A stretch of 64,000 bases of DNA from an uncultured Bryobacteraceae bacterium. GTDB taxonomy: Bacteria; Acidobacteriota; Terriglobia; Bryobacterales; Bryobacteraceae. Shown here one piece after another: positions 12,183 to 34,896 of this stretch (its first letter is position 1; each line of letters begins with the position of its first letter). Made by a program: the position numbers and the translations under genes. The notes below the pieces were generated by a model. The model ran no database searches, was not told the origin of the DNA, and saw nothing but the letters and a program-made list of their open reading frames with translations. The DNA is taken from positions 1-64,000 of the forward strand of contig CALJAM010000022.1 of the NCBI GenBank assembly GCA_938027685.1. The letters run 5' to 3'.

Positions 12183-12321
12183 CCGGGTTACGGGCGATAC
12201 ACGGTGGGCCGCTTTTGCGCGAAACTGGTGATTTGAGGGACGCCAGTGTGCGAACCTCAGCGACTGACGCGGTGGCAGCCGCGGCGGAAGATTTCACCCT
12301 TCGAAGGAGAGCACCGACTTT

Positions 12322-12576
12322 ATGGCATACGTAATCATCGACACCTGCACGAAGGACATGGCTTGTGTAGACGCATGCCCGGTGGATTGCATTCACCCCA
12401 AACAGGACGAGCCCGACATCGATTCGGTCCCGCAGCTTTATATCAATCCCGATGAATGCATAGACTGCGGCGCCTGCGTCCCTGTCTGCCCCACGAACTC
12501 GATCTTCGTCTTGGAAGAGCTGCCTGCGGACAAGGCGGAGTTCGCCGAGATCAACGCCAAGTACTTCCGCAAGTGA
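12322..12576 (+). CDS. fdxA: 7Fe-type ferredoxin
   Basis: An 84-residue small electron carrier. The second half has a complete [4Fe-4S] motif CIDCGACVPVCP. The first half reads CTKDMACVDACP, with cysteines in a C-x5-C-x3-CP pattern lacking one cysteine of the usual CxxCxxC, as in ferredoxins that hold a [3Fe-4S] cluster there. Length and the C-terminal tail FAEINAKYFRK match FdxA. GGAGA lies about 12 nt before the ATG. It is monocistronic; the partner reductase is not in the window. Confidence 0.9.
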   Translation: MAYVIIDTCTKDMACVDACPVDCIHPKQDEPDIDSVPQLYINPDECIDCGACVPVCPTNSIFVLEELPADKAEFAEINAKYFRK

Positions 12577-12613
12577 GGCCCGGCGCGCGGATCAGCGTGC
12601 GCCGCGCGCCCTC

Positions 12614-13018
12614 TCATTCCGGCAGGGCCAGGAAAACTGCCCAGGCGTGGGCGTGTTCCTCGCCGCGAGAATTGACGAGCGCGGCCTCGGTCAGGATTTT
12701 TCTTCGTTGCCGGTCCGCCACCCAGGCGCGCACCTGCAGGGTTTCACCCGGCGCTACGTGACGGCGCAGCCGCACTCGTAGCTCACAGGTCAGCGCGGGC
12801 CACCCGCGGGCGCTCACCGCCTGCGACATGGCCTCGTCCAGCACGGTCGAGATGATGCCGCCGTGGATGATGCCCTTAAAGCCCTCCCAGTCGCGGGTGG
12901 GGGTCCACTCGGCCGCGACGACGCCGTCACTCAGACTATGAAAGCGCAGCTTCAAGCCTCGCGGGTTTTCCGGGCCGCAAACGATACATGCAGGGTTGAG
13001 CAGCGCCTGTAGGTTCAA
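12614..13018 (-). CDS. PaaI-family hotdog thioesterase
   Basis: A 134-residue hotdog-fold acyl-CoA thioesterase. The central helix motif FKGIIHGGIISTVLDEAM contains the HGG signature, and ALTCELRVRLRRHVAPGETL forms the characteristic beta sheet. The substrate is unknown. The start is a TTG at 13018, with AAGGAG about 11 nt upstream. It converges on fdxA. Confidence 0.85.
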   Translation of the reverse strand: MNLQALLNPACIVCGPENPRGLKLRFHSLSDGVVAAEWTPTRDWEGFKGIIHGGIISTVLDEAMSQAVSARGWPALTCELRVRLRRHVAPGETLQVRAWVADRQRRKILTEAALVNSRGEEHAHAWAVFLALPE

Positions 13019-13458: not shown

Positions 13459-16400
13459 ATGAGCCGAGCAAGATCGTTTGCGGGCTTGGTCCGCACCGTG
13501 TCCTTGGCTTTGTTGTTTGGCGGACTCGGATGGACGCAGGAGCCGCGCGGAACCATCTTGGGCCGCGTGGTGGATCCCAGCGGCGCCGTGATCCCGAACG
13601 CCTCCGTGAAAATAACCAATACGGCCACCGGCGTCACCATCACCGTCGTGACCAATGCGCAGGGCAACTACGTCGCGCCTTACCTGATTCCGGGTACGTA
13701 CCGTGTGGAAGCGGAGGCCGCCGGCTTCAAGCGGATCGTTCAAGACGGGCTGGAGCTGCGCGTGAACGACCGCCTGGAGGTGAATCTCACCCTGGAAGTG
13801 GGCGCCATCACCGAGCAGGTAACTGTGGTGGCTGAAACTCCCCTGCTGGACACAACCAGCGCCTCGATGGGCTCGGTCGTCGACGCCCGTCGCGTGGCGG
13901 AATTGCCTGTTCCGCACGGCAACCCGTACCATTTGATCCAGCTTGCTCCCGGTGTGGCTTTTGCCCGCAGCATTACGCTGGATCGCCCCTTCGAGCCCAC
14001 GCACATTGTGGGATACGTCATGGACGGCGCCCGGGCCAATCGGAGTGAGGTGACTCTGGATGGCTCGGTCAACACGGCCTCCGGGAACACAGGGACTCGC
14101 AACGAGCTCATAGCCTCGTGGGTGCCGCCCGCGGATCTGGTAAGCGAGTTCAAGGTTCAAACCGCCCCGTTCGACGCCACCGTAGGCCAGACGGAGGGCG
14201 GCGTCGTCAACGTCAGCCTGAAGTCCGGCACCAACGCGCTGCACGGAACGGCTTACTACGTGAAGATGGCTCCGGAGCTGACCGCCAACCTTTTCTTTTC
14301 CAACCGCAACAATATCCCCCGTGGCAACTTCACTTATAACCGCTGGGGAACTTCGGCCAGCGGACCGGTGTACTTGCCGAGACTCCTGGACGGTCGCAAC
14401 CGGACCTTCTTCACCTATGGCTACGAAGGAATCCACGAGGAGCGCCCGCGCGGCACTACTCTCACGGTCCCTACGGCCAAGCAGCGCGAGGGAGATTTCT
14501 CCGACCTCCTCAAGTTGGGATCCCAGTACCAGATTTACGACCCCTTCACGCGCCGGCCGGCGCCGGGTGGGCGCTTTCAGGTCGACCCGCTTCCCGGCAA
14601 CATCATTCCGCCCAACCGCATAAGCCCCATTGCCAAGAACATCCTCAGTTACTATGCGCTGCCCACGGTACCGGGAACCGCCGACGGCCGCAATAATCTC
14701 CCCCTTCCCAATGAGCCCGAGCCCATCACCTATTACACGCATGCTTGGCGCGTGGACCACAATCTGAGCGCCAGCCATCGGATATTCGTTCGCGCCAACG
14801 TGTACAAGCGTGACAGCCATTACAACGACTGGTTCAAGAGTGCGGCCACGGGCCAGTGGTTTCAATTTTTAGCCCGGGCGGCGGGTTTTGACGATGTCTA
14901 CAGTTTCTCGCCGACATTGGTCATGAATGTCCGGTACGGTTACAACCGTTTCATTCGCACATACGACGGCAATCCCAAAGGGCGGGGATTCGATCTGACG
15001 ACGCTGGGATTTCCGGCTTCCTACAACAACGCCATAGACCCTTCGATTCGGCGGTTTCCGGTGATCTCGATCGACGGCTACGCGGGCACGTACAACGGCT
15101 GGCTGTGGCGTCCCACCGAGACGCATCAATTCGCTGCCGCCGTGGATAAGGTACACGGTTCGCATACCTTCAAGGTCGGCATGGAGTTTCGCGCGTATCG
15201 GGAAAACCAATACAACCCCGACCACGTCTCCACCGGGCAGTTCACCTTCGGAACCGCGTGGACGCGCGGGCCGTTCGACAACTCCCCGGCTGCCCCGATC
15301 GGCCAGGGTTTGGCCTCGATGCTGTTCGGCCTACCGACTTCGGGTTATGTGGATCGCCGGGCCAGTTACGCGGAGCAGTCCACCGTGTGGGCCGCATATC
15401 TGCAAAATGACTGGAAGATCACCCGGAGACTGACCATGACCTTGGGCCTGCGCTACGAGGTCGAGGGGCCGCTCACGGAGCGGTTCAACCGTTCGGTGCG
15501 CGGATTCGATTACGAAGCGGTCTTGCCGATCGAACCCCAGGTCAAGGCCAATTACGCCCGGAATCCTACGCGTGAGGTGCCGCCGGAGCAGTTCAGGGTG
15601 CGCGGCGGCTTGACCTTCGCCGCCGTGGGTGGTCTGCCGCGGACGCTCTGGGAGCGGGACGCCAATAACTTCATGCCGCGCGTAGGTCTGGCGTATAAGC
15701 TGACCGAACGAACGGTTCTGCGCAGCGGCTACGGGATCTTTTTCGGATTTCTGGGAGTGCGGCGCACCGACGTGATTCAGACCGGCTTCAGCCAGACTAC
15801 GCAGCTGATTCCTTCGCTGGACGGCGGTTTGACGTTCCGCGCGACGCTCGCCAATCCCTTCCCCGACGGCATCCAGGAGCCGTTAGGGGCGGCGCTGGGT
15901 CCCATGACTTATGTAGGGCAGGCCATCTCGTTTTTCAACACCAAGCCTCTGGCGCCCTACATGCAGCGGTGGCAGTTCAACATCCAACGGGAGTTTCCCC
16001 ACCGCGTAGTCCTGGACGTGGCGTATGTGGGCAACCGTGGAACTCACATCGAGACCTCACGTAATCTGAATGCACTGCCCGTAGTCTATCTCAGCCGCAC
16101 GGGCGAGCGGGACCAGCCGCTGATCGACTATCTGAGCGCCAACCTGCCGAATCCCTTTTATCCCCTCTTGCCCGGCACCGCGCGGGCAGGCTCGTTGATC
16201 AGCCGCGCCAGCCTGCTCACGGCCTATCCGCACTTCACCACGGTTTCCACGACGACCAACGAGGGTTATTCATGGTATCACGCCTTACAGGTGAAGGCCG
16301 ACAAGCGCTTCTCGCGCGGTTACACTGTGCAGGTGGCTTACACCTGGTCGAAGTTCATGGAGGCCACGGAGTTCCTGAACGAAGGAGATCCGGCCCCTGC

Positions 16401-16956
16401 GAAGTGCGTCTCAGACCAGGACTATCCGCACCGTCTGTCGCTGAGCTGGATCTGGGAGCTACCGTTCGGCCGCGGGCGTAAGGTGCTGGCCAACGCTCAC
16501 CCGGTGGTTTCGGCGATCGTCAGCGGCTGGCAGGTCCAGGGCATTTACGCCGCGCAGGCCGGTCAGGCCTTGGGCTTCGGCAACGTCATCTTCCGGGGAA
16601 ACCTTAAGGACATTCCGTTACCAAAGAAGCAGCGCACGCCGGACCGCTGGTTTAACATCGATGCCGGATTCGAGCGGGACAGCCGCAAGCAGCTCGGCTA
16701 TGCGGCGCGCGTGATGTCGTTCCGCTTCAACGGAATCCGCGGGGACGGCATCAACAACTGGGACATCTCTGCGATAAAAGACACGCGCATTCGCGAGGGC
16801 ATGAAGATTCAGTTCCGCGCCGAATTTCTGAACGCATTCAACCACGTGCTGTTTTCGAACCCGAACACCAGCGTGACCAGCACGGCCTTCGGGATGATCA
16901 CGTCCGAGAAGGGTTATCCGCGGCGAATTCAGCTTGGTATCAAGCTCATTTACTGA
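13459..16956 (+). CDS. Oar-like TonB-dependent receptor with carboxypeptidase-regulatory domain
   Basis: An 1165-residue outer-membrane receptor. A signal peptide at 1-27 is followed by a carboxypeptidase-regulatory-like beta-sandwich (GTILGRVVDPSGAVIPNASV to VNLTLEVGAITEQVTVVAET), a plug region (about 115-240, LPVPHGNPYHLIQLAPGV, SGNTGTRNE, GGVVNVSLKSGTN), then a large beta barrel ending RRIQLGIKLIY. Its likely substrate is an oligosaccharide, judging from the glycosidases and sulfatase next door; that is inference. It has its own promoter and a strong ribosome site. Such receptors are heavily expanded in Acidobacteriota. Confidence 0.9.
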   Translation: MSRARSFAGLVRTVSLALLFGGLGWTQEPRGTILGRVVDPSGAVIPNASVKITNTATGVTITVVTNAQGNYVAPYLIPGTYRVEAEAAGFKRIVQDGLELRVNDRLEVNLTLEVGAITEQVTVVAETPLLDTTSASMGSVVDARRVAELPVPHGNPYHLIQLAPGVAFARSITLDRPFEPTHIVGYVMDGARANRSEVTLDGSVNTASGNTGTRNELIASWVPPADLVSEFKVQTAPFDATVGQTEGGVVNVSLKSGTNALHGTAYYVKMAPELTANLFFSNRNNIPRGNFTYNRWGTSASGPVYLPRLLDGRNRTFFTYGYEGIHEERPRGTTLTVPTAKQREGDFSDLLKLGSQYQIYDPFTRRPAPGGRFQVDPLPGNIIPPNRISPIAKNILSYYALPTVPGTADGRNNLPLPNEPEPITYYTHAWRVDHNLSASHRIFVRANVYKRDSHYNDWFKSAATGQWFQFLARAAGFDDVYSFSPTLVMNVRYGYNRFIRTYDGNPKGRGFDLTTLGFPASYNNAIDPSIRRFPVISIDGYAGTYNGWLWRPTETHQFAAAVDKVHGSHTFKVGMEFRAYRENQYNPDHVSTGQFTFGTAWTRGPFDNSPAAPIGQGLASMLFGLPTSGYVDRRASYAEQSTVWAAYLQNDWKITRRLTMTLGLRYEVEGPLTERFNRSVRGFDYEAVLPIEPQVKANYARNPTREVPPEQFRVRGGLTFAAVGGLPRTLWERDANNFMPRVGLAYKLTERTVLRSGYGIFFGFLGVRRTDVIQTGFSQTTQLIPSLDGGLTFRATLANPFPDGIQEPLGAALGPMTYVGQAISFFNTKPLAPYMQRWQFNIQREFPHRVVLDVAYVGNRGTHIETSRNLNALPVVYLSRTGERDQPLIDYLSANLPNPFYPLLPGTARAGSLISRASLLTAYPHFTTVSTTTNEGYSWYHALQVKADKRFSRGYTVQVAYTWSKFMEATEFLNEGDPAPAKCVSDQDYPHRLSLSWIWELPFGRGRKVLANAHPVVSAIVSGWQVQGIYAAQAGQALGFGNVIFRGNLKDIPLPKKQRTPDRWFNIDAGFERDSRKQLGYAARVMSFRFNGIRGDGINNWDISAIKDTRIREGMKIQFRAEFLNAFNHVLFSNPNTSVTSTAFGMITSEKGYPRRIQLGIKLIY

Positions 16957-17628
16957 GGCCAAAAAAGAACTTCTTGGGCCGGACGTATTCAGCACAAGCG
17001 GGAGTTCCTTGCGTCGGGAGGCGTCCTCCGGGCAGAGTTGGGCTGTCGCCGGCGGCGACCGTCTTCCGTGTAGCGAGCCGTGATTTGCGTCTCACCCTCG
17101 CTGAGTGCAGCGCTTAGCCGCGAGGGTGAAGGTCCACATCGTTCCGGCAGAGCAGTACGTTGCCTTTGTCTTCAAGGAGGCGGCCTCGGCGCCCTTTGTC
17201 GGCGATCGAGGCCGGAGCAATGCGCCGGGCGCGAATTCCAGAGGCTCTTCGTCGGAGTGCGCGGGAGGTCGGCGGTCCGGGTCCTTGCCGCGCGGGGCCC
17301 GTGGCTCGACCGCCGCGCATTGGGCTGAAGTCGTTCGAACGCACCGAGAATCCTTTTGGCTCCGCGGCCTGGATACTCTGTTCCCGCCTGTTTGGTTCCT
17401 CCTAGTAACGGCTGTTTCCGACGATTGGCACAACCGGTAAGGACGGCCTCACCGGGACGCAACCCGTGAAGGGCAGCGGTCGTGCCTCGGAAACTGGTTG
17501 AAAAGGTTGTTCGGATAGGTCGGGTTGCCGAGGAGAAGTGTTCAACGAACTTCAGTAGCCTGCCATGCGATTTATCTCTGGCGGCGTAAGTTTGGCGGCC
17601 TGACGAACGGACCGCCCGCCGACTGTCC
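16957..17628. other. 672-bp gap between convergent TonB receptor and glycosidase genes
   Basis: Apart from the hairpins at 17045-17129, no gene was recognised. A plus-strand reading frame around 17105-17440 begins with a protein-like stretch (RVKVHIVPAEQYVAFVFKEA), but the rest is low-complexity and matches no family I know. It could be the remnant of a decayed gene. Confidence 0.4.
17045..17129 (+). terminator. Two hairpins downstream of the TonB receptor
   Basis: A short hairpin GTCGCC-GGC-GGCGAC near 17045 is followed by a perfect 10-bp inverted repeat (TCACCCTCGC at 17092-17101, GCGAGGGTGA at 17120-17129) with an 18-nt spacer. There is no T-run, so termination would not be of the classical intrinsic type. 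The 10-bp arms could alternatively be a protein-binding site. Confidence 0.35.
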
Positions 17629-20600
17629 TCAGTCTAGTGCGAGGATCCGCACCGGGCCTTCGAGTCCGTTCGGCCGGATCCAGTCGAGCCTGTCGCGTTC
17701 GGTTTCGAACTTCAGGCCCCAGCTGCCCCTGGGGTAAATCGTGTCGCCCTGCGCCAGCCGGCCCGCATCGGAGTTGGCCACGCGGATCACGAGGCGATTC
17801 TGCTGGCGGACCAGGCCGGTGATCTCGAAACGGAACGGGCGCCAGGCGCGCACACCCAGCGGTCGGCCGTTGAGCCACGCTTCGGCTGCCACTCCCACTC
17901 CGCCGAGGTCGAGGACCAGGCGTCGCCCCAACCAGGCGACAGGCAGCTCGAATTCGATTTCGTACAGAGCCGTACCGGAGTAATGCCGCAGGGCAGAATC
18001 GGTCCACGAGGCCAGCGTGAACTTGACCGGTTCGGTACGGAAGACGACGGGCGCCTCCGGGATTCGTTCGACGGCCAGCTCGATGCTTCGTGCGCCGGCT
18101 GGCAGCACTGCATCTGCGAATTCGCCTTCCAACCCGACCGCGCCGGGAGGGACCTCCACGCTCAGACGCACCGGCGACGCGGGCTGCGCGGGCGGGAGCT
18201 TGCGCCGGGGTGCGAATACGAGGTCGTGGAGGGTGCGTCCGTCCTCGCCGGTCAGTCTGAGCGAGAACGCCGTGGGGACGGACAGACTGGGTCCGACTTT
18301 CACGAGGAGCCGGTTCCAGCCGCGCCGTACCTGGACATCCGCCGTGCGCGCCCACGCGTCGCGCAGCAGCAGCCACTTCGGATGCTGGTGAACGCTGAGC
18401 ACCTGGCGTCCGTTCCACCACACGCGCAGGCTGTCGGCGAAGGCGGTCACGATCCGAGCTTTGCGGGCCACGGGAGAGTACACATAGACGAACGCGTAGT
18501 AATTGCCGAAGCGCCGATCGCCCGGCAACTGCAAGAGCTCGGCGGGGGCGATGCGGTAACCAGGCGCTTCGATCCAACGCCAGCGCACCTTACCGTAAGC
18601 TCCGGCGTACTCGGCGCCGGGCCGAAACCGCCGCTCCGGCGGAAAGGCGCTGAAAAATCCCTGATGGTCGTTGTACGGGAAGGGGCCGATCAGCCACCAG
18701 CGGCGGAGGCCCCCGCGCTCGGGCGCCAGCCAGACGTGTTCGCCCTGGGGCGTCCGCGCGTACGGCACGGCGACTCGTCCGGACTCGATCGTGAGCCGCC
18801 ATCCTCGATCCGGCAGTTGAAGCAGCAATTTTTCGCAAGAAGGGTCGCAAGGGGGCGCAGCCGCGCCTGCATGCCGGACGAGGAAGTGCGCGTCCCACGG
18901 CCCCAATCGGAGCACGACCACGTCGCCCTCCGCCAAAGTGCACCGGTCGCCGGTCGCCGCGTCCCACTTCTCCCAACGGGCGGATATAGGCATGCGCACT
19001 CGCAGCCTGCGGGACTCCGGGCTGTCATTGACTACCCAGAACCATTCGGCTTCGTCGGTCGCGCGCCGCGAAAAATAAAAGTGTGCCGGGTCGCCGTCCA
19101 GAACGCGCACGGCGGGCGGTTCGAGCGTTTCCAGCGCGCGCACGAGCGGTCGTAGGTCCTCGCGCACGGCTTCCGGCGCCGCGATGGTTCGTGTGTAGTC
19201 CAGCCGATGCATGTAGGGCGCGTGCCGCCGGACGGCGAACCGCCGCAACGGCGCTCCGTTGAGCACGGCTGGTTGTTCGCCCAGCGCGAGCACCTTTCCG
19301 CCCGCTGCGATGAATGCAAGTACCTTATTGGCCGCCGCCTCATCCATATGCGTCATGGGCGGAAGAATGAGCACTCGGAACTGCTCGTCCCGCAGGCGGA
19401 GTGCGCCCTGCTCGATGGTGGCCTTTTGCAGGTAGTGGCGATCCAGGATGTGAAAGTCCCAGCCGCCGCGCGCCAGCTCGAGTTGGAGCGCGCTGTAGAA
19501 GTTTTGCACCTGGTCTACCCGGTTGTTCCACACCAGGGGTCGGGCACGCTTGGAGAACAGGGCGGTGGAACCGGCGAAAACGCTCTCCAGGGGATAGTAG
19601 ATGGCTAAGGGCGCGATGTGGCGTCCCTGCGCGTTCATATACTGGGCGCGCCGCACGTAATCGGCGTAAGCCCGGAAGTATCTCCAGAAAGGCTGGCCTA
19701 GAAACCATTGGGGAGGCCAAATAATCTTGTGCGAATCGTAGTCAAAATAGGGTACGAGTAAGTTGGCGCCCCAAAGTAGGGCCATGTTGGTGCCGAGCCG
19801 CATCTTTTCCGGGCTGAGGAATGAATCGTGGCCTTGCAAACCCTGGTTTTCGACTACGAGCGGGATCCCTTCCAGGTGCGCCACCGTCACGGCTTCCTTG
19901 AAGTCCAGCGGCATGTGCGATCGCTCGAGGAGGGCGTCGATCATGACGAACGTACCCGCGCGCCAGTGAGCGAACATGTCCCCGGCCAGGCCCACCTGGA
20001 ACCAGAACTGCTCTTCGTAGAGCGAGGTGGCGTGGCCGAGACGGCGGCGGCGGCACCACTCCGTGACCTGACGGGTGAAGGCCTCCACGTAGAAATCGGA
20101 GACGAGTTGCAAATAATGCGTGCGAACCTTGGATGCCGCGCCTTCTTCTACGGACTCGTTAACGAGCAGGGGTAGCGCCGATCTGAGATCGTAGCCGTAG
20201 CGCCGCTGAAATTCATCGAAGAGGCGCGGAGTCCAAGCGATCGGCTCTCCGTAAGCGCCCTCGTGATCGGCGATGGTCAACTTCAAAGTGCTGCCGAGGT
20301 GCTCGGGGAAACGGCGCGCGAGCTCCTCGTAGACGAGATCGAGGTAGAGGCGTACGGCCTGCGGGTTGAGCAGGTCCACGCGCGTGTTGTGCGCTCCGAC
20401 GGCAGGAACCAGTCGATACAAGGTGAGGAGCCAGCGACCCGCAGGCACGTGAAACCGCAGCTCGCCACGGACCGGCTCGATCAACCGAAGGGTGGATGCC
20501 TCGAGCTTGCCCTCGCGTTCTTGCCGCGCGACGACGGCGAAGCAGGCCGGGGGCTTGGGCTTCATGCGCCATCGCCGCGGGCCTTCCAGCACGTGTTCCT

Positions 20601-21021
20601 CGTAGTCGAGGCGACGCATGCGGAACTCGGGGCGCTGCTCGAGTACGCGGCTGAGCTCCGGTCCCCCTTCGGGCCGCCAGGCGTGGCCGCTCGGCCAGTT
20701 CAGCTCGTCGGCGAGGTTGAGCGTGAAGCCCAGCTCGCGCGCGGCTGCGAGCGCGGCGCCTAACTGCCGCCAGTACTCTTCGGACAGGTACGCGGGCTCC
20801 ATGCCGTCCCAGGGGAACACCACGGCTTGGTAGACCCCCTGTCGGATCATCTCCTCGATTTGCCTTCGCGTTTCGCTTTCCGTGACGCGGCCGTTCCAGA
20901 ACCAGTAGGGCATCAGCGAGAAGCGGCGCGGCGGGTCGCGGAAAGTTTCCGCCAGATCGCCCGCGGATACGAGGGCTGCCAGCAGGGCCTCTGCTAAGAT
21001 GACTCGGAGGCGGACGCGCAT
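17629..21021 (-). CDS. GH106-like glycosidase (putative alpha-L-rhamnosidase)
   Basis: An 1130-residue secreted enzyme with signal peptide at about 1-22 (VILAEALLAALVSAG). The N-terminal block FRDPPRRFSLMPYWFWNGRV followed by QIEEMIRQGVYQAVVFPWDG and NLADELNWPSGHAW matches the start of GH106-type (beta/alpha)8 barrels. Acidic candidates lie in TIADHEGAYGEPIAW. The C-terminal ~110 residues form a galactose-binding-like beta sandwich (LVLDLGGVGVAAEAWLNGRP). It is paralogous to the gene at 39686, which has exactly the same length. The ATG at 21021 shares a CATG with the divergent gene; an ATG at 21036 is the alternative. Confidence 0.75.
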   Translation of the reverse strand: MRVRLRVILAEALLAALVSAGDLAETFRDPPRRFSLMPYWFWNGRVTESETRRQIEEMIRQGVYQAVVFPWDGMEPAYLSEEYWRQLGAALAAARELGFTLNLADELNWPSGHAWRPEGGPELSRVLEQRPEFRMRRLDYEEHVLEGPRRWRMKPKPPACFAVVARQEREGKLEASTLRLIEPVRGELRFHVPAGRWLLTLYRLVPAVGAHNTRVDLLNPQAVRLYLDLVYEELARRFPEHLGSTLKLTIADHEGAYGEPIAWTPRLFDEFQRRYGYDLRSALPLLVNESVEEGAASKVRTHYLQLVSDFYVEAFTRQVTEWCRRRRLGHATSLYEEQFWFQVGLAGDMFAHWRAGTFVMIDALLERSHMPLDFKEAVTVAHLEGIPLVVENQGLQGHDSFLSPEKMRLGTNMALLWGANLLVPYFDYDSHKIIWPPQWFLGQPFWRYFRAYADYVRRAQYMNAQGRHIAPLAIYYPLESVFAGSTALFSKRARPLVWNNRVDQVQNFYSALQLELARGGWDFHILDRHYLQKATIEQGALRLRDEQFRVLILPPMTHMDEAAANKVLAFIAAGGKVLALGEQPAVLNGAPLRRFAVRRHAPYMHRLDYTRTIAAPEAVREDLRPLVRALETLEPPAVRVLDGDPAHFYFSRRATDEAEWFWVVNDSPESRRLRVRMPISARWEKWDAATGDRCTLAEGDVVVLRLGPWDAHFLVRHAGAAAPPCDPSCEKLLLQLPDRGWRLTIESGRVAVPYARTPQGEHVWLAPERGGLRRWWLIGPFPYNDHQGFFSAFPPERRFRPGAEYAGAYGKVRWRWIEAPGYRIAPAELLQLPGDRRFGNYYAFVYVYSPVARKARIVTAFADSLRVWWNGRQVLSVHQHPKWLLLRDAWARTADVQVRRGWNRLLVKVGPSLSVPTAFSLRLTGEDGRTLHDLVFAPRRKLPPAQPASPVRLSVEVPPGAVGLEGEFADAVLPAGARSIELAVERIPEAPVVFRTEPVKFTLASWTDSALRHYSGTALYEIEFELPVAWLGRRLVLDLGGVGVAAEAWLNGRPLGVRAWRPFRFEITGLVRQQNRLVIRVANSDAGRLAQGDTIYPRGSWGLKFETERDRLDWIRPNGLEGPVRILALD
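20992..21000 (+). promoter_or_regulatory. Extended -10-like element for the gene at 21020
   Basis: TGCTAAGAT, an extended -10 form, lies inside the divergent glycosidase coding sequence and ends 19 nt before the ATG at 21020. It overlaps the alternative ATG at 20999, which argues for the later start. Confidence 0.35.
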
Positions 21022-22669
21022 GAGGAAGCAACTCATTATCCCAGCCGTTTTGCTGGCGGCGCTGGGCGCGGCGGCGGAGGACCCCTTCGTCCGGGCCCGC
21101 GAAAACGGCCTTCGCTGGGAGGAAGCGGCGGCGGCCGCGCGGCGAGTGCTGCACGCCTGGCTAAAACATGCCGACCCGAAAACGTTGCTTTTGCCCGATC
21201 GCCTTCCGGGCGGCTCGCGCGGCCTCAAGCCCGGCGCGCCCCGTGTCTACACGCCGCACAATTCGGGTGCGGATCTATATCCGTACCTCATCCTGACCGC
21301 GCATCTCACGGACCCCGAACTTTACGAGGGCCGCATGATGGAAATGCTGCGCAACGAAATCCGCTATACGACCGCGCAGGATTCCATCCCCGCCGATCTG
21401 AACCTGGACACCGGCGAGCTTGGCCCGCCCAGTCTGTTCGGTGCGGGCGAATACGCCAAGGACGGTCTGGTCGCCGTGACCGAGCGGCTGGGACGTACGC
21501 CCTGGTTTTACCGCATGACGGACATGGTCGCCGACGCCATGCACCGCGCGCCGGTGCCTTCGATCTTCGGCAACTTGCCGGCCTCGGATTCCGAACTGAA
21601 CGGCGACTTCCTGCAAGTGCTGGTGCGACTCTGGCCGATGACGGGCGACTCCCGTTTCCGCGAATGGGCTCACCGCATCGGCGACGCTTACGTCGACGAA
21701 GTGCTCCCGGGCAATTACGGCCTGCCCAGCACCAAATGGGACTTCACCGCGCACAAGGGCGACACCCAAGTGCGGTTGCGCGATCACGGAAACGAGATCG
21801 TCGTAGGCTTGGCGCTGCTGTACGCCCTGGAGCAAGAACAGAGGACGCCGCGCGCTGCCCGCTACCGTCCCGCGATCGCGCGCATGCTCGATCGCATTCT
21901 CGAGTCGGCCAACCCGGACGGCATGCTGTACAACGTCATTGACGCGGCTACGCTTACGCCCATCAACAAGGGCCTCTCCGACAATTGGGGCTACGTTTAC
22001 GGCGCCGTCTACGCCTTCTATCAGGCGACCGGCGAGACCAAATACCGGGAGGCCGTTCGCCGCGTGCTCGCGAACCTTGTCAAGTACCGCAATTACGATT
22101 GGGAAAGCGGCTCCTTCGATGGTTACGCGGATTCGATTGAAGGCGCCCTGTATCTGGTAGCGCGGGAACCCGTCCCCGAGGCTCTGGACTGGATCGAGTC
22201 CGAGATCCGCACGATGATGAGGATGCAGCAGCCTTCCGGCCTGATCGAGCACTGGTATGGGGAGGGAAATTTCAATCGCACGCTGCTGCTCTACATGGAC
22301 ATGAAGAGTCAGGGCTGCCGGCCCGATCGCTGGGTCCCCGGTTTGAGGCTGGGAGCGGTGCGCGAAGCTGACCGGTTGTACCTGAGCCTGGAGGCGCCCA
22401 AGGGCTGGCAGGGCCGCGTACGCTTCGACTACGCCCGCCACCGCCGCGTGCTCAACTTCCCGATGAATTACGTACGGTTGAACGAATTCCCCGAGTGGTA
22501 CGCGGTGGACGAAAATACCCTCTACCGCGTGCGCTCTGCGGCGGGGGCCGAGCGCATTCACCTGGGATCGGAGTTGATTGCAGGCGTGCCGCTGGCGCCC
22601 GGTAACTGGGTTATCGAACCGTTGGGCAAGCCGCCTTACGGGCCCGCTCATGCAGCGCCTGCGAAGTGA
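21020..22669 (+). CDS. Secreted protein of unknown function, probable alpha/alpha-barrel
   Basis: A 549-residue protein with a clear signal peptide (KQLIIPAVLLAALGAAA). The middle is mostly helical with recurring hairpin-like motifs (DNWGYVYGAVYAFYQATGETKYREA, split across helices, and YADSIEGALYLVAREPVPEA), as in (alpha/alpha)6 glycoside hydrolases or lyases. The C-terminus looks like a beta-sandwich. I do not recognise the family. The ATG at 21020 has GGAGG 9 nt upstream, so it is preferred over the ATG at 20999. The head-to-head glycosidase suggests a shared carbohydrate substrate. Confidence 0.7.
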   Translation: MRKQLIIPAVLLAALGAAAEDPFVRARENGLRWEEAAAAARRVLHAWLKHADPKTLLLPDRLPGGSRGLKPGAPRVYTPHNSGADLYPYLILTAHLTDPELYEGRMMEMLRNEIRYTTAQDSIPADLNLDTGELGPPSLFGAGEYAKDGLVAVTERLGRTPWFYRMTDMVADAMHRAPVPSIFGNLPASDSELNGDFLQVLVRLWPMTGDSRFREWAHRIGDAYVDEVLPGNYGLPSTKWDFTAHKGDTQVRLRDHGNEIVVGLALLYALEQEQRTPRAARYRPAIARMLDRILESANPDGMLYNVIDAATLTPINKGLSDNWGYVYGAVYAFYQATGETKYREAVRRVLANLVKYRNYDWESGSFDGYADSIEGALYLVAREPVPEALDWIESEIRTMMRMQQPSGLIEHWYGEGNFNRTLLLYMDMKSQGCRPDRWVPGLRLGAVREADRLYLSLEAPKGWQGRVRFDYARHRRVLNFPMNYVRLNEFPEWYAVDENTLYRVRSAAGAERIHLGSELIAGVPLAPGNWVIEPLGKPPYGPAHAAPAK

Positions 22670-22778
22670 TCCCCGCGAGAGTGCGCCAGAGCGCGGCCGC
22701 GCCTTCAGAACCCGACGCTGCGAACCGAGGGGATCCTCGCATCCGACGACGCCCACGCAGAGCTCCGACAGGTCCTCA

Positions 22779-24575
22779 TCAGCCCTTGGCCCGCTCCAGG
22801 GCTCGCCGGACCCAGGGCGTCGGCTTCTCGATCTCTTCGGCCGAGCGAATGGTGATCGTCGGCACCGCGTTGTGCTCTTCGTGGATTCGGGCGCGCAACT
22901 CCTCGGCGGCGTCGCGGCCGCCCAGACGCGAATAGCCGAAAGAGCGGCAGATTCTGCCGAACAGGAAATCGTTCAACGCGCAGCCCCCCGTGCGTTCCAG
23001 GCCCTCGATGTTGCTGTGCCCGCTGCGGAATAAATGCACCTGCGCGAAGGATAGGCCCTGCGCTATGATTTCGTTCAGCCCTTCGCCCCCGACGCTGAGA
23101 CCGTCGCCGATAGCGCCGACTTCGTGAATGAGCCGGTTGATCCCTTCCGAGCTGGTCAGGCCTTCGACCAGCGCGTTGTGCAGGTTGGCCGTCACTAGCG
23201 TCACGTCCAGGAAGACGGCTTCCAGATTCAAAGCACGGACGTTCTCCTCGATTCGTTCACACAGCAGCGAACGCCACATCGTGAGTCCAGGGTGGATTTT
23301 CACCATCACCTTCTTGTCGCGGTGACGCAGGCGCGCCGAGTTGGATTCCGGAACGCCGATGTTGCGCTGGTTTACCCAGCTCCAGCCGTAGAGTTTTTTG
23401 GTCTCCACATCGCGGTATTGAAAGTCGCGCACCTGCGTGTAAACCGGATGATTCGGATCCACCTCGAGACTGTTGAAATGGGGCATCACATGAAAACCGA
23501 GCTGCCGCGCCCGTGTCAGAAACTTCTTTGCGGCTTCGTTCGGGGTGTAAGTGGGGTAGTTCTCGTCATAAGGATCGGTGCGCCAGTTAGGAAGATGAAT
23601 CAAGACGCGGGCCGGGTTGACCCTGCGGGCGAGGCTCTCGAGCACCGCTGTATCGGTCGGGCACCAGGCGATCGCCATAGCGATTTGGTGGATCCAGGGC
23701 GCCCGGCGTTGCTCTTCGGCCGCCAAGTTGTAAGTTCTCCAGAGCCAATCGCGGTAGCGCCCGGCCGGCGTTTGCCAGCCGCCCTGATAGACGTTCACGC
23801 GCCAGGCGAGACCTCCGGCCGCCAGATTATCGTCAATCGGCCCGTAGGCCTCGGCATCGAAGCAAAGCGCGTAGGGGTCATCGGGGAGACCCACTCCCAG
23901 CGCTTTGTAGCGGTAGCGGCCATCCTGCGCATGCACCCAGAAACCGCTGTTCGCGCCCTGAAGAATCGCCAACCCGGCCTCCCAGCCCTGGGGCCACAGC
24001 CAGTGCGAACCCCGAATCAGCGGATCACTGAGTTCGAGGGCGATGCCCTGATAAAAGGGCGCCACCAGGCGCAAGTCCCGCCTGATTCCGGCGATCACAT
24101 AACGGCAGGCGCGCACTCCCGGTCGGGACGAATAGCCCGAGGGCTCCAAAATCAGATCCCCGGACACGGGGTCCACTGAAACACGCAGCACTCCGTCTCC
24201 GTTCCAGTTGTGAAAGCGTAGTTCGGCGCAGGCAGGCGTGATCTGACGGGCCACGACGTCTCCGAAGAGCCGCTCGCCGAGATCGACCGTTTCACGGCCC
24301 CGATAGACCAGCCGCAGGGCGTCGAACCGCGTGCGGTCGAAAGGCTCGATGAACTTCTCGCCCGTGAGCTTGCTCTCCAGCGCGGTCAGAAAGCCCTTTT
24401 CCAGGGTTGCCCGCAGCGTCGAGGATTCCACGCGGATCACCGCGTCTTGTTCCACGCGCACCTGAGCTACGGTCGGCTGCGAAACCAGCAGCCGGAGCGG
24501 GGCCGCCACGGCGGCTCGCAGGCCGGCGGCGCTCGCGAGGAATTCGCGACGGGAAACTTCCGGTCCGCGGTGCAT
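22779..24575 (-). CDS. Tat-exported DUF6259-like glycosidase-type protein
   Basis: A 598-residue protein with a twin-arginine signal (SRREFLASAAGL, residues 8-19). An N-terminal beta-sandwich (about 40-260) is followed by a TIM-barrel-like half with phrases such as VLIHLPNWR, GFHVMPHFNSLEVDP and NLEAVFLDVTL, reminiscent of DUF6259 and related glycoside-hydrolase-like proteins. The enzymatic activity is unproven. AAGGAG lies 7 nt before the ATG, and a TGGTAGAAT -10 lies about 37 nt upstream. It converges on the gene at 21020 and diverges from the sulfatase. Confidence 0.65.
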   Translation of the reverse strand: MHRGPEVSRREFLASAAGLRAAVAAPLRLLVSQPTVAQVRVEQDAVIRVESSTLRATLEKGFLTALESKLTGEKFIEPFDRTRFDALRLVYRGRETVDLGERLFGDVVARQITPACAELRFHNWNGDGVLRVSVDPVSGDLILEPSGYSSRPGVRACRYVIAGIRRDLRLVAPFYQGIALELSDPLIRGSHWLWPQGWEAGLAILQGANSGFWVHAQDGRYRYKALGVGLPDDPYALCFDAEAYGPIDDNLAAGGLAWRVNVYQGGWQTPAGRYRDWLWRTYNLAAEEQRRAPWIHQIAMAIAWCPTDTAVLESLARRVNPARVLIHLPNWRTDPYDENYPTYTPNEAAKKFLTRARQLGFHVMPHFNSLEVDPNHPVYTQVRDFQYRDVETKKLYGWSWVNQRNIGVPESNSARLRHRDKKVMVKIHPGLTMWRSLLCERIEENVRALNLEAVFLDVTLVTANLHNALVEGLTSSEGINRLIHEVGAIGDGLSVGGEGLNEIIAQGLSFAQVHLFRSGHSNIEGLERTGGCALNDFLFGRICRSFGYSRLGGRDAAEELRARIHEEHNAVPTITIRSAEEIEKPTPWVRRALERAKG

Positions 24576-24611
24576 GTGAAAACTCCTTACGGCATCAAAA
24601 CTGCGCCCGGT

Positions 24612-24620
24612 ATTCTACCA
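24612..24620 (-). promoter_or_regulatory. Extended -10-like element of the DUF6259-like gene
   Basis: Minus strand TGGTAGAAT. A start about 7 nt further gives a leader of about 30 nt that carries AAGGAG (24588-24583), a normal ribosome site. No clear -35 is seen. Confidence 0.4.
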
Positions 24621-24734
24621 CCACCCTCCCGGCGTACTTCGCGCGGGCCACGGCACGAGAGAAAAGGGTCCCCGGAGGTAGCATCCATTGCGGGCAGAGC
24701 CGCCGGAGGGCGGGCGGCCGTCATGCGCCTGACG

Positions 24735-24740
24735 TATAAT
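24735..24740 (+). promoter_or_regulatory. Consensus -10 hexamer of the sulfatase gene
   Basis: A perfect TATAAT ends 12 nt before the ATG at 24753, leaving a leader of about 5 nt with no Shine-Dalgarno sequence. It lies downstream of the in-frame ATG at 24723, so it supports the later start. The -35 position has no good match. Confidence 0.45.
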
Positions 24741-24752
24741 CATTCGGACGTC

Positions 24753-26174
24753 ATGCAGCGGCGACTGTTTCTCGCTTCGGGCATTGCCGCCTTGCGGCGG
24801 CTGGAGGGCGCATCCGCGCAGCAGCGCCCCAACATTCTCCTTTGCATCGCCGATGACTGGGCCTGGCCGCACGCCTCGATTTACGGCGATCGCGTCGTGC
24901 GCACCCCTACGTTCGACCGTGTGGCCCGTCAGGGAGTCCTGTTCACCAACGCCTTCTGCGCCGCGCCTTCCTGCACGCCCTCGCGCGCCGCCATTTTGAC
25001 CGGGCAGGCTCCCCATCGCCTGGCCGAGGGCGGCAACCTCTGGGGATTTCTGCCCGCGCGCTTTGCCGTGTACACGGATCTGCTCGAGCAGGCCGGCTAC
25101 TTCGTGGGCTTCACGCGCAAGGGCTGGGGGCCGGGGGATTTCAAGGCGGGTGGTCGCAGCCGCAATCCGGCCGGCAACGTCTTCAAGAGCTTCGAGGAAT
25201 TTTTCGCCGCCGCGCCCGCGGACCGACCGTTCTGTTTCTGGTTCGGTAGTAACGACCCGCACCGGCCCTATGAACCGGATTCCGGGCTGAAATCCGGCAT
25301 GCGGACCGAGGACGTGGTCGTCCCACCTTGCTGGCCCGATGCTCCCGAGGTCCGGCGCGACATACTCGACTACTACTTCGAAGTCCAGCGCTTCGACCGC
25401 GAAGTGGGCGAAATTCTCACCAGGCTGGAGAAGGCCGGGAGGTTGGAGAACACTCTGGTCGTGGTTACCAGCGACAATGGCTGGCCGTTCCCGCGCGCGA
25501 AAGCCAATCTTTACGACGGCGGGACGCACATACCGCTCGCCATCGCCTGGCCGGCGCGCATCCGCGGCGGCCGCACGCTGCGCGACTTCGTGAACCTGGC
25601 CGACCTGGCGCCTACTTTCCTCGAGGCTGCGGGACTTAAGCCCCTACCGGAAATGACCGGCCGGAGCTTGATGGGCTTGCTGCTCGGCCAGGAAAAACCC
25701 GGATCGCGCCGCGAAGTCTTCCTCGAACGCGAACGGCACGCCAACGTGCGCCGCGGCAACTTGAGCTACCCTGCGCGCGCCATTCGTACGGCTGATTATT
25801 TATACATTCGCAATTTCCGCCCGGACCGCTGGCCGGCGGGGGACCCGGAACTTTACTTCGCGGTAGGGCCGTTCGGCGATTGCGACGAGGGCCCCACCAA
25901 GCGCTATATTCTCGAGCGCCGCGAGGATCCCAAATTCGCTCGCTTCTTCGAACTCTGCTTTGCAAAACGGCCGGCCGAGGAGCTCTACGACCTGCGCAAG
26001 GATCCCCACCAACTGAACAACGTCGCCGGCCGCGCCGAATATGCCGCGGTCCAGCGAGGCCTTCGCGAGCGACTGGAGCGGTGGATGAAGGACACCGGCG
26101 ATCCGCGAGCCACGGTGGATGACGACCGCTGGGACCAGTACCCGTACTTCGGCCAGCCCGCCAAGAAAGCTTAA
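24753..26174 (+). CDS. Exported arylsulfatase-family sulfatase
   Basis: A 473-residue type I sulfatase. The formylglycine motif CTPSR is at residues 74-78, within FCAAPSCTPSRAAILTGQ. The metal-binding DD is in CIADDWAWPH (34-35), and VVTSDNGWPF supplies further metal ligands. A short signal (RRLFLASGIAALRRLEGASA) precedes it. It should remove sulfate esters from polysaccharide fragments after maturation by a formylglycine-generating enzyme not seen here. The in-frame extension upstream to 24447 overlaps the divergent gene and is rejected. Confidence 0.9.
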   Translation: MQRRLFLASGIAALRRLEGASAQQRPNILLCIADDWAWPHASIYGDRVVRTPTFDRVARQGVLFTNAFCAAPSCTPSRAAILTGQAPHRLAEGGNLWGFLPARFAVYTDLLEQAGYFVGFTRKGWGPGDFKAGGRSRNPAGNVFKSFEEFFAAAPADRPFCFWFGSNDPHRPYEPDSGLKSGMRTEDVVVPPCWPDAPEVRRDILDYYFEVQRFDREVGEILTRLEKAGRLENTLVVVTSDNGWPFPRAKANLYDGGTHIPLAIAWPARIRGGRTLRDFVNLADLAPTFLEAAGLKPLPEMTGRSLMGLLLGQEKPGSRREVFLERERHANVRRGNLSYPARAIRTADYLYIRNFRPDRWPAGDPELYFAVGPFGDCDEGPTKRYILERREDPKFARFFELCFAKRPAEELYDLRKDPHQLNNVAGRAEYAAVQRGLRERLERWMKDTGDPRATVDDDRWDQYPYFGQPAKKA

Positions 26175-26185
26175 ACCGACTGAGC

Positions 26186-27022
26186 TCAGGCCCGAGCACG
26201 CCGCTCGATCGGCTTTTGGCCGCGAGGCGCTGGGACGAACAGATCGCGGCGCGTCAGGCCGAGGCGCCGCGCCGCTTCGATGCAATAGTCCAAGCGCCCC
26301 ACTTCAGGGCCGTGAATGTTCGAGCCGAAGGAGAACTTCAATCCGGCCCGCTGCGCCATCCTCAGGAAGGGTTCCTTAGGGATCCGGTAGCGCGCATTGA
26401 TTTCGATGGCCACTCCGTAGCGTGCAGCCGCCTCGATAATTCTTTCCATGCGCTCGCGGGTCCAAAGGGTGTCGTAATCCTTTTCGAGGGCTGAGGGCAG
26501 GAATGTGGGATTGGCTAAGATGTCGATCGGCGCGCGGCGCATCAGTTCGACGTGGAAATCCACGTAGCGCTCCATGAATCCCTCGGGGTCCTCGATGTTT
26601 TTGGCCGCCCCGGTCCAAAGTTTGATCAACGGCTCGTCGCCCCCCGCGCCGCGGAGGACGCGTTGGGGCACCGTAAGCGCATCCTGCAGAACGTAATCGA
26701 GCTCGGCCACCAGCGTAGGCGAGAAACACTCCATCCAATCCAGGCCTTCGGCCTGGATGCCGCGGTAGACGGGCTTGTCGGCCAGCTTTTCCAACCAGCG
26801 GCGCAGGTCCGCATCGTGGCAGAGCATACCGCGGTAGCCCAGCTCCGGTTTGCCCGCGTGCTCTACGATGCCGAAACGCACGCCTCGTCGGCGCGAGATT
26901 TCGAGGGCTTTCTCGAGCGTGATGTGCTCGTCCAGGTGAACGTGGTAGTCCACCACCGGCAAATCGTCCTCTGCAAACGCGGCGCCGGCGAGAGCCAGGC
27001 CGAAGGTCCGACGAGTGATCAT
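26186..27022 (-). CDS. Exported PHP-domain phosphoesterase-like protein
   Basis: A 278-residue protein with a Tat-like N-terminus (TRRTFGLALAGAAFA) followed by a PHP domain: D25-Y-H27-V-H29 is the first metal motif, then FGIVEHAG. DILANPTFL and FSFGSNIHGPEVGRLDYCIE resemble the final barrel strands. PHP proteins include histidinol-phosphatase-like enzymes and other metal-dependent hydrolases; the substrate is unknown. It overlaps argR by 4 bp (ATGA), so it appears to be the last gene of the arginine operon despite being exported. Confidence 0.8.
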   Translation of the reverse strand: MITRRTFGLALAGAAFAEDDLPVVDYHVHLDEHITLEKALEISRRRGVRFGIVEHAGKPELGYRGMLCHDADLRRWLEKLADKPVYRGIQAEGLDWMECFSPTLVAELDYVLQDALTVPQRVLRGAGGDEPLIKLWTGAAKNIEDPEGFMERYVDFHVELMRRAPIDILANPTFLPSALEKDYDTLWTRERMERIIEAAARYGVAIEINARYRIPKEPFLRMAQRAGLKFSFGSNIHGPEVGRLDYCIEAARRLGLTRRDLFVPAPRGQKPIERRARA

Positions 27023-27459: not shown

Positions 27460-28853
<1,394 letters not shown>

Positions 28854-32303: not shown

Positions 32304-32312
32304 TGCTATCAT
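32304..32312 (+). promoter_or_regulatory. Extended -10-like element of the Oar-like barrel gene
   Basis: TGCTATCAT ends 13 nt before the ATG at 32326 and contains the first base pairs of the alternative ATG at 32311. No Shine-Dalgarno sequence follows. The same 9-mer lies upstream of the DUF2784 gene on the minus strand. Confidence 0.4.
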
Positions 32313-32325
32313 GGTTTTTTTTGCC

Positions 32326-34896
32326 ATGCTTCGCCTGCCCGCCCTGCTGGCGGCTGCAGCGTCGGTCGCGGCAGCCCAGCAAGCTGCCCCGCGAGCCGCA
32401 GCGCCTAAGCCCGCTCAGAGGGTCGAGCGTCTCGGCTCGGCCGCCCAGCGCAACGAGAACATCCAGGTCCACCGAATCGACAACGACGCCATCAAGGAAG
32501 CCAACATCCGGCTCGGCACCAATGTCACCGCCGTGACGGAGCCCACCGCCGAGGCCGGCTACTTCGCGGCCGAGCACGGCCGCGCGCCTTTCCGGCCGCC
32601 GCTGCTAGGCAGGCGGGCCCTTGTGAATCGCTGGCACGGCGAGCTGTTCGAATGGCATCAGAATAGCGTCTTCAACGCTCGCACGTTTTTCCAGGTGGGG
32701 CCGGTCCAGCCTTCGCGACGCAACCATTATGGCTTGCGGGCCACCGGCGGGCTGGGGCTGGCGGGCAACCTCAGCGTTGCCGCTTCGCAGCGCAAGGTCC
32801 GCGGCATGGTCAACGGCAACGTGCTGGTGCCGCTGCCCGAAGAGCGCACGCCGCTGGCGATCGACCCCGCCGTGCGCGCTCTCGTCAGCCGCTGGCTCGA
32901 AGCGTACCCTCCCGTTGCGCCCAATCGCCCCGATTTCGATCCTCGCGCCCTGAACACGAACGCTCCGCAACGCATAGACGAGAGCGATCTCGAGGTGCGG
33001 CTGGATCGCGACCTGAGCGCAGGCTCGCGCTTGGCTCTCTCGCACGCCCTCAGCCGTCAGCGGGAGGCCGCGTTCCAGCTTGTGGCGGGCCAGAATCCGG
33101 ATACCGACATTCACGCCCATCGCAGCCGCTTGACGTGGCGCTGGAGCCCCTCCGAAGCAACCGAGCTGGCGGCCGGTCTCGCCTTCGATCGCGTGCGGTC
33201 CTGGCTGCGTCCGGAGCCGCGCGCCGTCGGGCCCCGTATCCGCATCGGCTTTCAGATCGAAGAGCTCGGTCCCGACAGCATGTTCCCGATCGACCGCGCC
33301 CAGAACAACTGGCGCGCCGCCCTGCTGGTGAGCCGGCAGGCGGGCGGCGTCCGTCACCGTCTGATCGCGGGCGGGGATCTGACGCGCATGCAACTGAATG
33401 GCGTCGAAAGCAACAACCAGCGGGGCTATTTCCAGTTCACCAACAATTTCGGGCGCACGGCGGTAGAAAACTTCCGCCTAGGCGTGCCCACGACCTATGA
33501 GGTCACCGTCGGCGAACTGGCCCGCGGATTCCGCAACTGGATGCTCAACGCTTTCGTCGGGGACCGCTGGAGCGTCGCGCCGCACCTCCAGATTTCCTTC
33601 GGCCTGCGGTACAACGCGCTGACCGCGCCCGTCGAGGTGCGGGGGCTGAACGTGGTCCCCTACGGATGCGACTGTAATAACGTCAGCCCGCTCGTGGGCA
33701 TCGCATGGGGTCTCGGCTCCTGGACCCTGCGCACGGCCTACACGGTTTCCTTCGGCGAGATCCTCCCCGTAACCTACCAGCAGATCCGCAACAACCTTCC
33801 GCACGTGCGCTACGTGCAGGTGCAGAACCCCGACGTGCTGGATCCCCTACGCGGTCTCCGGCTCGACAATACCGGGGGCCGATCCTCGCCCACGTGGCTG
33901 TCGTCGGATCTGGTCTCGCCGTACGCGCATCAGTACACCCTCGTCCTCGAAAGGCGCCTTGCCGCGGGCGCCATCCTGCGCGCCGGCTACGTGGGAAGTC
34001 GCACCATCAAACTGCTGAACGTTTTCATCCAGAACCGGGCTGAACCTGTTCCGGGCATCCCCCTGACGACCGGCACGGTGGACCAGCGCCGTCCCGACCC
34101 GCGCTATTACGAAACCAAGCTCATCGTCAACGCGGGCATCGCTTATCTGGACGCCGCGCAGTTCGGCCTCGATCTGCCGCTCCGGCGCGGCTTCACCGGC
34201 GGGCTCCGCTACACCTTCGGCAAGGCCATCGACGAGGGCGCTGACTATGCCTCGACAGCCGCGAACGCCGACATCCTGCGCGGCCGCAGCCAGTGGCAGT
34301 ACGATCAGTTCCGAGACCGCAAAGGGCTGAGCAACTTCGATTCGCCCCACGCCCTCGAACTGCACGCCGTTTGGGATCTTCCTTCGCGGCGGGGGCGGCA
34401 TGGCGCCCGCGGGCATCTCTTCCACGGCTGGCAGCTTTCCACCGCCGTGCTGATCAAGACCGGAACGCCCTTCACGCTCTACGTGGGATCGGACGCGCCG
34501 GGCTTCGGCAACGTGGACGGCGGGCCCGGCGACCGCCCCCATATCCTCGATCCTTCCATCCTGGGCCGCACGGTGGACGATCCCAACACTTCGACCTCCA
34601 TCCTGCGGCGCGATCGCTTTGCTTTCATTCGGCCCGGAGAGCGGCGCGGCAACCTGGGGCGCAACACCTTCCGCAAAGACGGCATCGCCAATATCAATGC
34701 CGCGGTCGGCAAGCAGTGGCGCTGGAGCGGAAGCCGCGAGTGGACCCTGATGTTGCGCGCAGAAGCTTATAACCTGACCAACCACCCGCAGTTCGACGAG
34801 CCGCAGCGCAACCTCAGTTCGCCCTCGTTCGGACGGATCACGAACACGTTGAACTACGGGCGCGTCTTTCAACTAGGGTTGAGGCTGTTGCTGTGA
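32326..34896 (+). CDS. Oar-like outer-membrane barrel without N-terminal plug domain
   Basis: An 856-residue protein with signal peptide LRLPALLAAAASVAAA. The C-terminal ~650 residues follow the acidobacterial Oar-type barrel pattern (SVAPHLQISFGLRYNA, GAILRAGYVGSRTIKLLNVF, FRKDGIANINAAVGKQW, final strand VFQLGLRLLL). The carboxypeptidase-regulatory domain and canonical plug seen in the receptor at 13459 are absent; instead there is a ~60-residue Ala-rich segment and a short N-terminal region. It may be a channel or adhesin rather than a true TonB receptor. An ATG at 32311 is an alternative start. Confidence 0.75.
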   Translation: MLRLPALLAAAASVAAAQQAAPRAAAPKPAQRVERLGSAAQRNENIQVHRIDNDAIKEANIRLGTNVTAVTEPTAEAGYFAAEHGRAPFRPPLLGRRALVNRWHGELFEWHQNSVFNARTFFQVGPVQPSRRNHYGLRATGGLGLAGNLSVAASQRKVRGMVNGNVLVPLPEERTPLAIDPAVRALVSRWLEAYPPVAPNRPDFDPRALNTNAPQRIDESDLEVRLDRDLSAGSRLALSHALSRQREAAFQLVAGQNPDTDIHAHRSRLTWRWSPSEATELAAGLAFDRVRSWLRPEPRAVGPRIRIGFQIEELGPDSMFPIDRAQNNWRAALLVSRQAGGVRHRLIAGGDLTRMQLNGVESNNQRGYFQFTNNFGRTAVENFRLGVPTTYEVTVGELARGFRNWMLNAFVGDRWSVAPHLQISFGLRYNALTAPVEVRGLNVVPYGCDCNNVSPLVGIAWGLGSWTLRTAYTVSFGEILPVTYQQIRNNLPHVRYVQVQNPDVLDPLRGLRLDNTGGRSSPTWLSSDLVSPYAHQYTLVLERRLAAGAILRAGYVGSRTIKLLNVFIQNRAEPVPGIPLTTGTVDQRRPDPRYYETKLIVNAGIAYLDAAQFGLDLPLRRGFTGGLRYTFGKAIDEGADYASTAANADILRGRSQWQYDQFRDRKGLSNFDSPHALELHAVWDLPSRRGRHGARGHLFHGWQLSTAVLIKTGTPFTLYVGSDAPGFGNVDGGPGDRPHILDPSILGRTVDDPNTSTSILRRDRFAFIRPGERRGNLGRNTFRKDGIANINAAVGKQWRWSGSREWTLMLRAEAYNLTNHPQFDEPQRNLSSPSFGRITNTLNYGRVFQLGLRLLL

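Follow-up and report, generated by a model that had tools for sequence, protein, structure and literature searches.

The described systems closest to a five-gene group that we examined in an uncultured Bryobacteraceae bacterium are the polysaccharide utilization locus (PUL) of the Bacteroidota with its SusC/SusD pair, the Ram106B-type rhamnosidases of glycoside hydrolase family GH106, the S1_8 and N-sulphoglucosamine sulphohydrolase (SGSH) sulfatases, and a range of alpha/alpha toroid enzymes. Passages of published work assign a GH106 enzyme to a putative Pseudoalteromonas ulvan locus (PMC13050008), place rhamnosidases of Verrucomicrobiota with sulfatases all around them (PMC8857213), and describe the GH106 enzyme BT_0986 as acting on a rhamnogalacturonan II fragment (PMC6828813). 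In excerpts of other sources, S1_8 sulfatases act on glucosamine N-sulfate (PMC10154612), on galactose 2-sulfate (PMC12549532) and at the xylose of ulvan tri- and tetrasaccharides bearing rhamnose 3-sulfate (PMC8360166). The five genes lie at 13459-26174 of a 64,000-nucleotide stretch (the window) of contig CALJAM010000022.1, from a genome of 3.93 Mb in 45 contigs. A first-pass annotation of the window had taken them for a region that utilizes a sulfated, rhamnose-containing polysaccharide. Its list of genes was borne out by family matches, which is why we judge the genes to be real; what their grouping means is a separate matter.

13459..16956, + strand: TonB-dependent receptor with OMP_b-brl_4 (PF25183) and CarboxypepD_reg matches; missing at this site in the sister species.
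17629..21021, - strand: GH106a, of a divergent PF17132 clade marked by DHEG and VENQG motifs; carries a GH2-type sugar-binding domain at the C terminus and, by eye, a signal peptide.
21020..22669, + strand: AA21, a predicted alpha/alpha toroid protein whose family is unclassified, with a signal peptide seen by eye; its start codon lies within a CATG common to the GH106a start.
22779..24575, - strand: DUF6259 protein with a twin-arginine motif, between AA21 and the sulfatase; missing there in the sister species.
24753..26174, + strand: type I sulfatase, S1_8/SGSH-like, with a CTPSR formylglycine motif and a Tat-like signal seen by eye.

The group resembles a Bacteroidota PUL in that a receptor lies close to glycan enzymes and to a sulfatase. 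It differs in lacking the SusC/SusD pair (Pfam scans of the genes of 13459-27022 turned up no SusD family, in agreement with the first-pass annotation), in not being an operon and in being little conserved as a grouping. We read it as a small glycan-degrading cluster at the level of the genus, with a core of GH106a, AA21 and the sulfatase to which the receptor and DUF6259 genes are single-gene additions, and we give this reading an even chance of being right.

The core is what the sister species RSWS6 (locus L059) retains. The window aligns with the sister DNA at 12304-13006, 17648-22647 and 24768-26965, and the second and third of these segments, at 76-79% identity, keep GH106a, AA21 and the sulfatase together. 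In the sister, the sulfatase start (11593) precedes the AA21 end (11596), so that the two genes overlap by 4 nucleotides, GTGA. Stop/start overlaps of the GTGA type are typical of translational coupling. Judged by its sequence, the AA21-sulfatase pair looks operon-like in the sister and would be interrupted here by the DUF6259 gene; we favor an insertion here because a deletion that left the GTGA overlap by accident seems less likely. The sister lacks the receptor segment (~4.6 kb, with ~160 bases in its place) and the DUF6259 segment (~2.1 kb, with ~40 bases in its place), both being clean single-gene presence/absence differences. A search around the two segments for insertion scars turned up no noteworthy terminal repeats. 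Either the receptor and DUF6259 genes were added singly here or the sister lost them. GH106a and AA21 have start codons, picked by eye, that overlap in the CATG at 21019-21022 and are arranged nearly identically in the sister; with both starts inside one CATG, either the promoters lie within the neighboring gene or the chosen starts are wrong.

Several observations weigh against treating the five genes as one locus, beginning with the two segments missing from the sister and the alternation of strand from gene to gene across all five. Relatives were sought in a family sample of 121 genomes, the source genome included, and in one genome scan that gave 412 stretches encoding an AA21 relative, of which the best 80 are the named AA21 loci (flanks up to 10 kb, some ended by contig ends). 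GH106a and a matching sulfatase stand beside AA21 in one of these 80 loci, that of the sister. A further 13 carry a weaker sulfatase match somewhere in their flanks (23-47% identity, some fragmentary), which may count in favor of the cluster. Another (L136) has a GH106b-like neighbor, and DUF6259 occurs near AA21 in none of the 80. In the family sample AA21 matches occur in 32 genomes (E <= 1e-10) and DUF6259 matches in 16 (E <= 1e-20), with GH106a in 14 (E <= 1e-40), the sulfatase in 52 (E <= 1e-80) and the receptor in 80 (E <= 1e-200), the last three counts being lower bounds because a subset of candidates per genome was scored. Outside the source genome and one genome of the same genus (G010), the listed relatives of AA21, GH106a, DUF6259 and the sulfatase lie on separate contigs, with the exception of one genome (G100) in which AA21 and a weak DUF6259 match are 520 kb apart. 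Nor does AA21 have a dominant partner in other phyla: among 79 neighboring proteins of 180-920 amino acids, two genes to each side in 27 of 30 non-acidobacterial loci, no Pfam family was found in more than three, the sulfatases being one of the families that reached three. SusC-sized receptors fall outside that scan because of its length range. The second PF17132 protein, GH106b, is cut off from the group by argH, argG and other genes, which speaks against the first-pass suggestion that it belongs to the same system. The five genes, taken together, are mostly not a conserved locus.

The strongest alternative is that, receptors, sulfatases and sugar enzymes being plentiful in this genome, the five are largely chance neighbors, each with its own substrate. 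The genome encodes at least 65 PF25183 receptors (65 of 107 scored candidates) and 44 sulfatases (45 matches, one split pair merged), and 3.2% of random 12.7 kb stretches of it hold both a receptor and a sulfatase. A genome-wide pairing of the two was suspected and not established: a receptor lies within 5 kb of 12 of the 44 sulfatases (8.4 expected, p 0.12) and within 2 kb of nine (5.0 expected, p 0.06). Because receptors and sulfatases are abundant and not clearly paired, their company here, chosen post hoc, is weak evidence alone. The alternating strands, the scattered relatives and the want of a dominant AA21 partner also fit chance. Against it stand the retention of GH106a, AA21 and the sulfatase together in the sister, with the operon-like overlap there, and an enrichment of receptors elsewhere. 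PF25183 receptors occupy six of 40 slots adjacent to AA21 versus six of 213 others (p 0.005; 20 loci in 18 family genomes) and three of 14 slots beside GH106a relatives versus one of 52 (p 0.03); a receptor stands directly in front of the GH106a relative in three of seven loci, with one open reading frame (ORF) between in one more. Beside DUF6259 the figures are 0 of 12 versus 4 of 63. These adjacency tests are small, their loci partly non-independent and the gene caller home-made, which limits their weight for the cluster. Receptor matches also share a contig with AA21 (G043, G012), GH106a (G002:C50), DUF6259 (G096, 14 kb) and the sulfatase (G064, 6 kb). On balance we find chance neighborhood rather unlikely. 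As to the first-pass idea of one utilization region, the trio kept in the sister upholds part of it, whereas the receptor and DUF6259, missing there, the alternating strands and the scattered relatives do not.

Within the cluster as we read it, AA21 is the component that no family accounts for. No Pfam family matched it above cut-off; there were weak GH88, GH127, GH76 and GH47 signals, with 20 bits against the GH88 profile PF07470, short of its cut-off of 26.6, and 14.2 bits against the GH47 profile PF01532 (cut-off 22.9). No NCBIfam family matched at E <= 0.01, and the PDB gave weak repeat-type sequence matches alone, a designed PPR protein being the strongest (E 0.002). The source genome has a single AA21 match at E <= 1e-10. 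The closest named relatives in the genome scan are from Bryobacteraceae and other Acidobacteriota, and the titles of the best 80 of the 412 stretches extend to Bacteroidota, Planctomycetota, Verrucomicrobiota, Armatimonadetes, Omnitrophota, KSB1 and Glassbacteria; no match was found on plasmids. An esterase-like domain (PF05448, above cut-off) forms part of one planctomycete relative. Some copies in family genomes (L011, L028, L031) have one in-frame stop inside the match and may be decaying. On the opposite strand, an ORF of 493 amino acids (21275-22756, -) without a family match was rejected as antisense to AA21, the frame with relatives in 32 of the 121 genomes.

A model of AA21 built from 40 aligned sequences (predicted local distance difference test, pLDDT, 96.3) has 14 main helices by our count, followed by a small beta part, and is read as an (alpha/alpha)7 toroid, in keeping with the alpha/alpha barrel predicted earlier for 21020-22669. 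In VIA-align, GH47 mannosidases come first (Z 22.5, 371 residues, 3.5 A), level with an uncharacterized thioredoxin-type protein from Brucella (Z 22.3, 317 residues, 4.1 A); next come LanC-like cyclases, epimerases (both groups near Z 20-21) and GH76. Foldseek puts GH88 at the top by E-value and also returns 2-epimerases, GH76, GH47 and PL2; PL2 and GH88 do not appear in the 50 rows of VIA-align, which excludes neither. AA21 resembles GH47, GH88, GH76, 2-epimerases and LanC-like proteins in its predicted fold and shows a sub-threshold sequence signal for GH88, GH127, GH76 and GH47; it differs from them in an identity of ~8-14% in the fold matches and in having no family model above cut-off; many of these families score alike. 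Eight acidic residues are invariant among the relatives (D64, E123, D127, E171, E238, D350, E353 and E389, numbered as in the mature model) and two nearly so (D234 and D300), and the conserved acids sit where the helices taken as inner begin, or close to that point.

Tentatively, and with somewhat less than even confidence, we propose that AA21 founds an unclassified exported (alpha/alpha)7 carbohydrate-active family that spans several phyla and that, in this genus, is translationally coupled with an S1_8-like sulfatase beside an unassigned DHEG/VENQG clade of PF17132. AA21 could instead act as an epimerase or a lyase, or be a toroid relative without catalytic activity, as the mixture of GH88, 2-epimerases, GH76, GH47 and PL2 among the best Foldseek E-values and the high VIA-align rank of the Brucella protein, LanC-like proteins and epimerases would allow. 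The signal peptide seen by eye, the esterase-like fusion and the conserved acids near the inner-helix starts argue for a hydrolase, and we consider a different function for AA21 unlikely.

GH106a and GH106b both exceed the curated PF17132 cut-off of 29 bits (84.6 and 132 bits), as expected from their earlier naming as GH106-like, and are among six proteins (eight matches) of this family in the genome. Aligned by phmmer with BT0986 (5mwk), GH106b keeps D458, followed by E, has H for E538 and D for E561, and keeps the general base E593. A passage on the Ram106B rhamnosidases gives D-E, H and D at these positions with E593 kept (PMC6828813), a pattern that the GH106b sequence fits. GH106a differs from the Ram106B type. 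It keeps D458 and has D-H-E-G in place of the canonical D-S-x-E and V-E-N-Q where canonical proteins carry the base Glu one position later, so that the known catalytic residues are absent from the aligned columns. The acid column (E461) holds G in phmmer and a gap in MAFFT, with a Glu one position earlier, the alignment being uncertain at such identity; the base column (E593), read via a canonical row (L001) of an alignment without BT0986, holds N, again with a Glu one position earlier. One row of the MAFFT alignment (L150) is in the wrong frame and was disregarded. The clade of GH106a is marked by ADHEGxYG-like and ENQ motifs. GH106a may use the shifted Glu residues for catalysis, and its rhamnosidase activity is accordingly not assured. 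The GH106a relatives at L208, L209 and L211 lie directly behind a TonB receptor that is read in the same direction, in L208 after a GntR/FCD regulator, and each likely forms an operon with it.

The sulfatase matches PF00884 (E 8e-38) and SGSH_C and carries the CTPSR formylglycine motif at residue 74, features that place it in type I (S1) by sequence, as the first-pass annotation had done. In the PDB it scores highest by sequence with the S1_8A enzyme 9bb9 (147 bits), then with 4mhx, an N-sulphoglucosamine sulphohydrolase (137 bits), and these matches and the CTPSR motif are what link it to the S1_8 and SGSH sulfatases; an N-acetylglucosamine-6-sulfatase, 5g2v (123 bits), follows at no great distance, so that its subfamily and substrate are tentative. 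The genome encodes an anaerobic sulfatase maturase (anSME) above cut-off and has FGE-family matches as well. The receptor, presumably Oar-like, matches PF25183 at E 3.3e-203 and CarboxypepD_reg at E 4.6e-21. The DUF6259 protein belongs to PF19773 (53.8 bits, cut-off 28.7) and has the twin-arginine motif SRREFL, both as first proposed; it has no relative in the PDB or in viral contigs, its single-sequence model (pLDDT 34) is unusable and we found no paper on it. Where export of nearly all the products had been claimed, a signal peptide or Tat motif is recognizable in all of the components, by eye rather than by predictor.

The analysis establishes the family memberships, the predicted AA21 fold, the AA21/sulfatase overlap in the sister and the maturase and rhamnose-isomerase-like genes; export, catalysis, the sequence of steps, the C2 position and any common substrate are inferred. 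The receptor would admit oligosaccharides to the periplasm, where the sulfatase, matured by the genome's own anSME, would strip sulfate, likely from the C2 position of a sugar, and AA21, as a predicted (alpha/alpha)7 enzyme, and the PF17132 enzyme would then cleave glycosidic bonds. A sulfated rhamnose-bearing substrate, as first suggested, is possible. It is favored by the presence of a receptor and of glycan genes bearing export signals, the PF17132 scores of both GH106 proteins, the anSME, the overlap in the sister and an L-rhamnose isomerase just below cut-off (TIGR02635, 512 versus 531 bits; the genome has none of the RhaA type), and by analogy the ulvan and Verrucomicrobiota precedents speak for it without testing it. 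It is disfavored by the shifted Glu residues of GH106a, by the action of S1_8 enzymes on several sugars (galactose, glucosamine, xylose) and by the closest relative of the receptor with readable flanks (81% identity, G019), which lies near a GH28/rhamnogalacturonase-type (pectinase-type) gene with one called ORF between. A sulfated rhamnose glycan, pectin fragments and separate substrates are alike possible. Elsewhere in the genome (L226:5797-9327), a TonB C-terminal-domain protein lies directly ahead of the L-rhamnose isomerase-like gene.

A cluster for an unsulfated pectin-type glycan such as rhamnogalacturonan, with the sulfatase incidental, would suit that receptor relative, the activity of BT_0986, a polysaccharide deacetylase next to one GH106a relative (L207, G002) and the S15/S9 esterase- or peptidase-type neighbors of three others, but is quite improbable given that the formylglycine motif is kept, that the sulfatase overlaps AA21 in the sister, that a sulfatase lies two genes from another GH106a relative (L208) and that the receptor may be a newcomer at the site.

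Three further genes of the window bear on the surroundings of the cluster.

26186..27022, - strand: PHP-like protein with NCBIfam matches below cut-off, no Pfam match and a twin-arginine-like N terminus; a neighbor kept in the sister species.
32311..34896, + strand: outer-membrane barrel of the PF25183 family (E 4.3e-98), without a CarboxypepD_reg match; unlinked to the cluster.
39686..43078, + strand: GH106b, the second PF17132 protein, with a Ram106B-type active-site pattern; outside the cluster.

The second GH106-like enzyme of the first-pass annotation is therefore present, and its second barrel is too if the outer-membrane barrel was meant; a second AA21 does not exist at the threshold used. 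The argH and argG genes, at 27456-31061, lie directly behind the cluster and between it and GH106b, and the same stretch holds an argF-like gene recognized by eye. At 34873-39564 a DUF4340 protein adjoins a large ABC permease-like protein and an ABC ATPase-like protein, the latter two recognized by eye; the group is perhaps a gliding-type ABC system. An RraA-like protein (PF03737) at 46324-47073 has a twin-arginine-like N terminus by eye and is possibly exported, which is unusual for its family.

Our literature searches found no paper that joins Bryobacteraceae with sulfatase, TonB-dependent and polysaccharide, nothing on Bryobacteraceae with sulfatase and rhamnosidase (another family alone was returned), and no paper for Acidobacteria with receptor terms. 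Glycan clusters of this type seem little described in Bryobacteraceae. Apart from AA21 and the sulfatase coupled to it, the components of this one are ordinary and mostly of known kinds. AA21 could be tested as a candidate new enzyme family, and the overlap in RSWS6 points to the sulfatase as the protein to pair with it in such tests.

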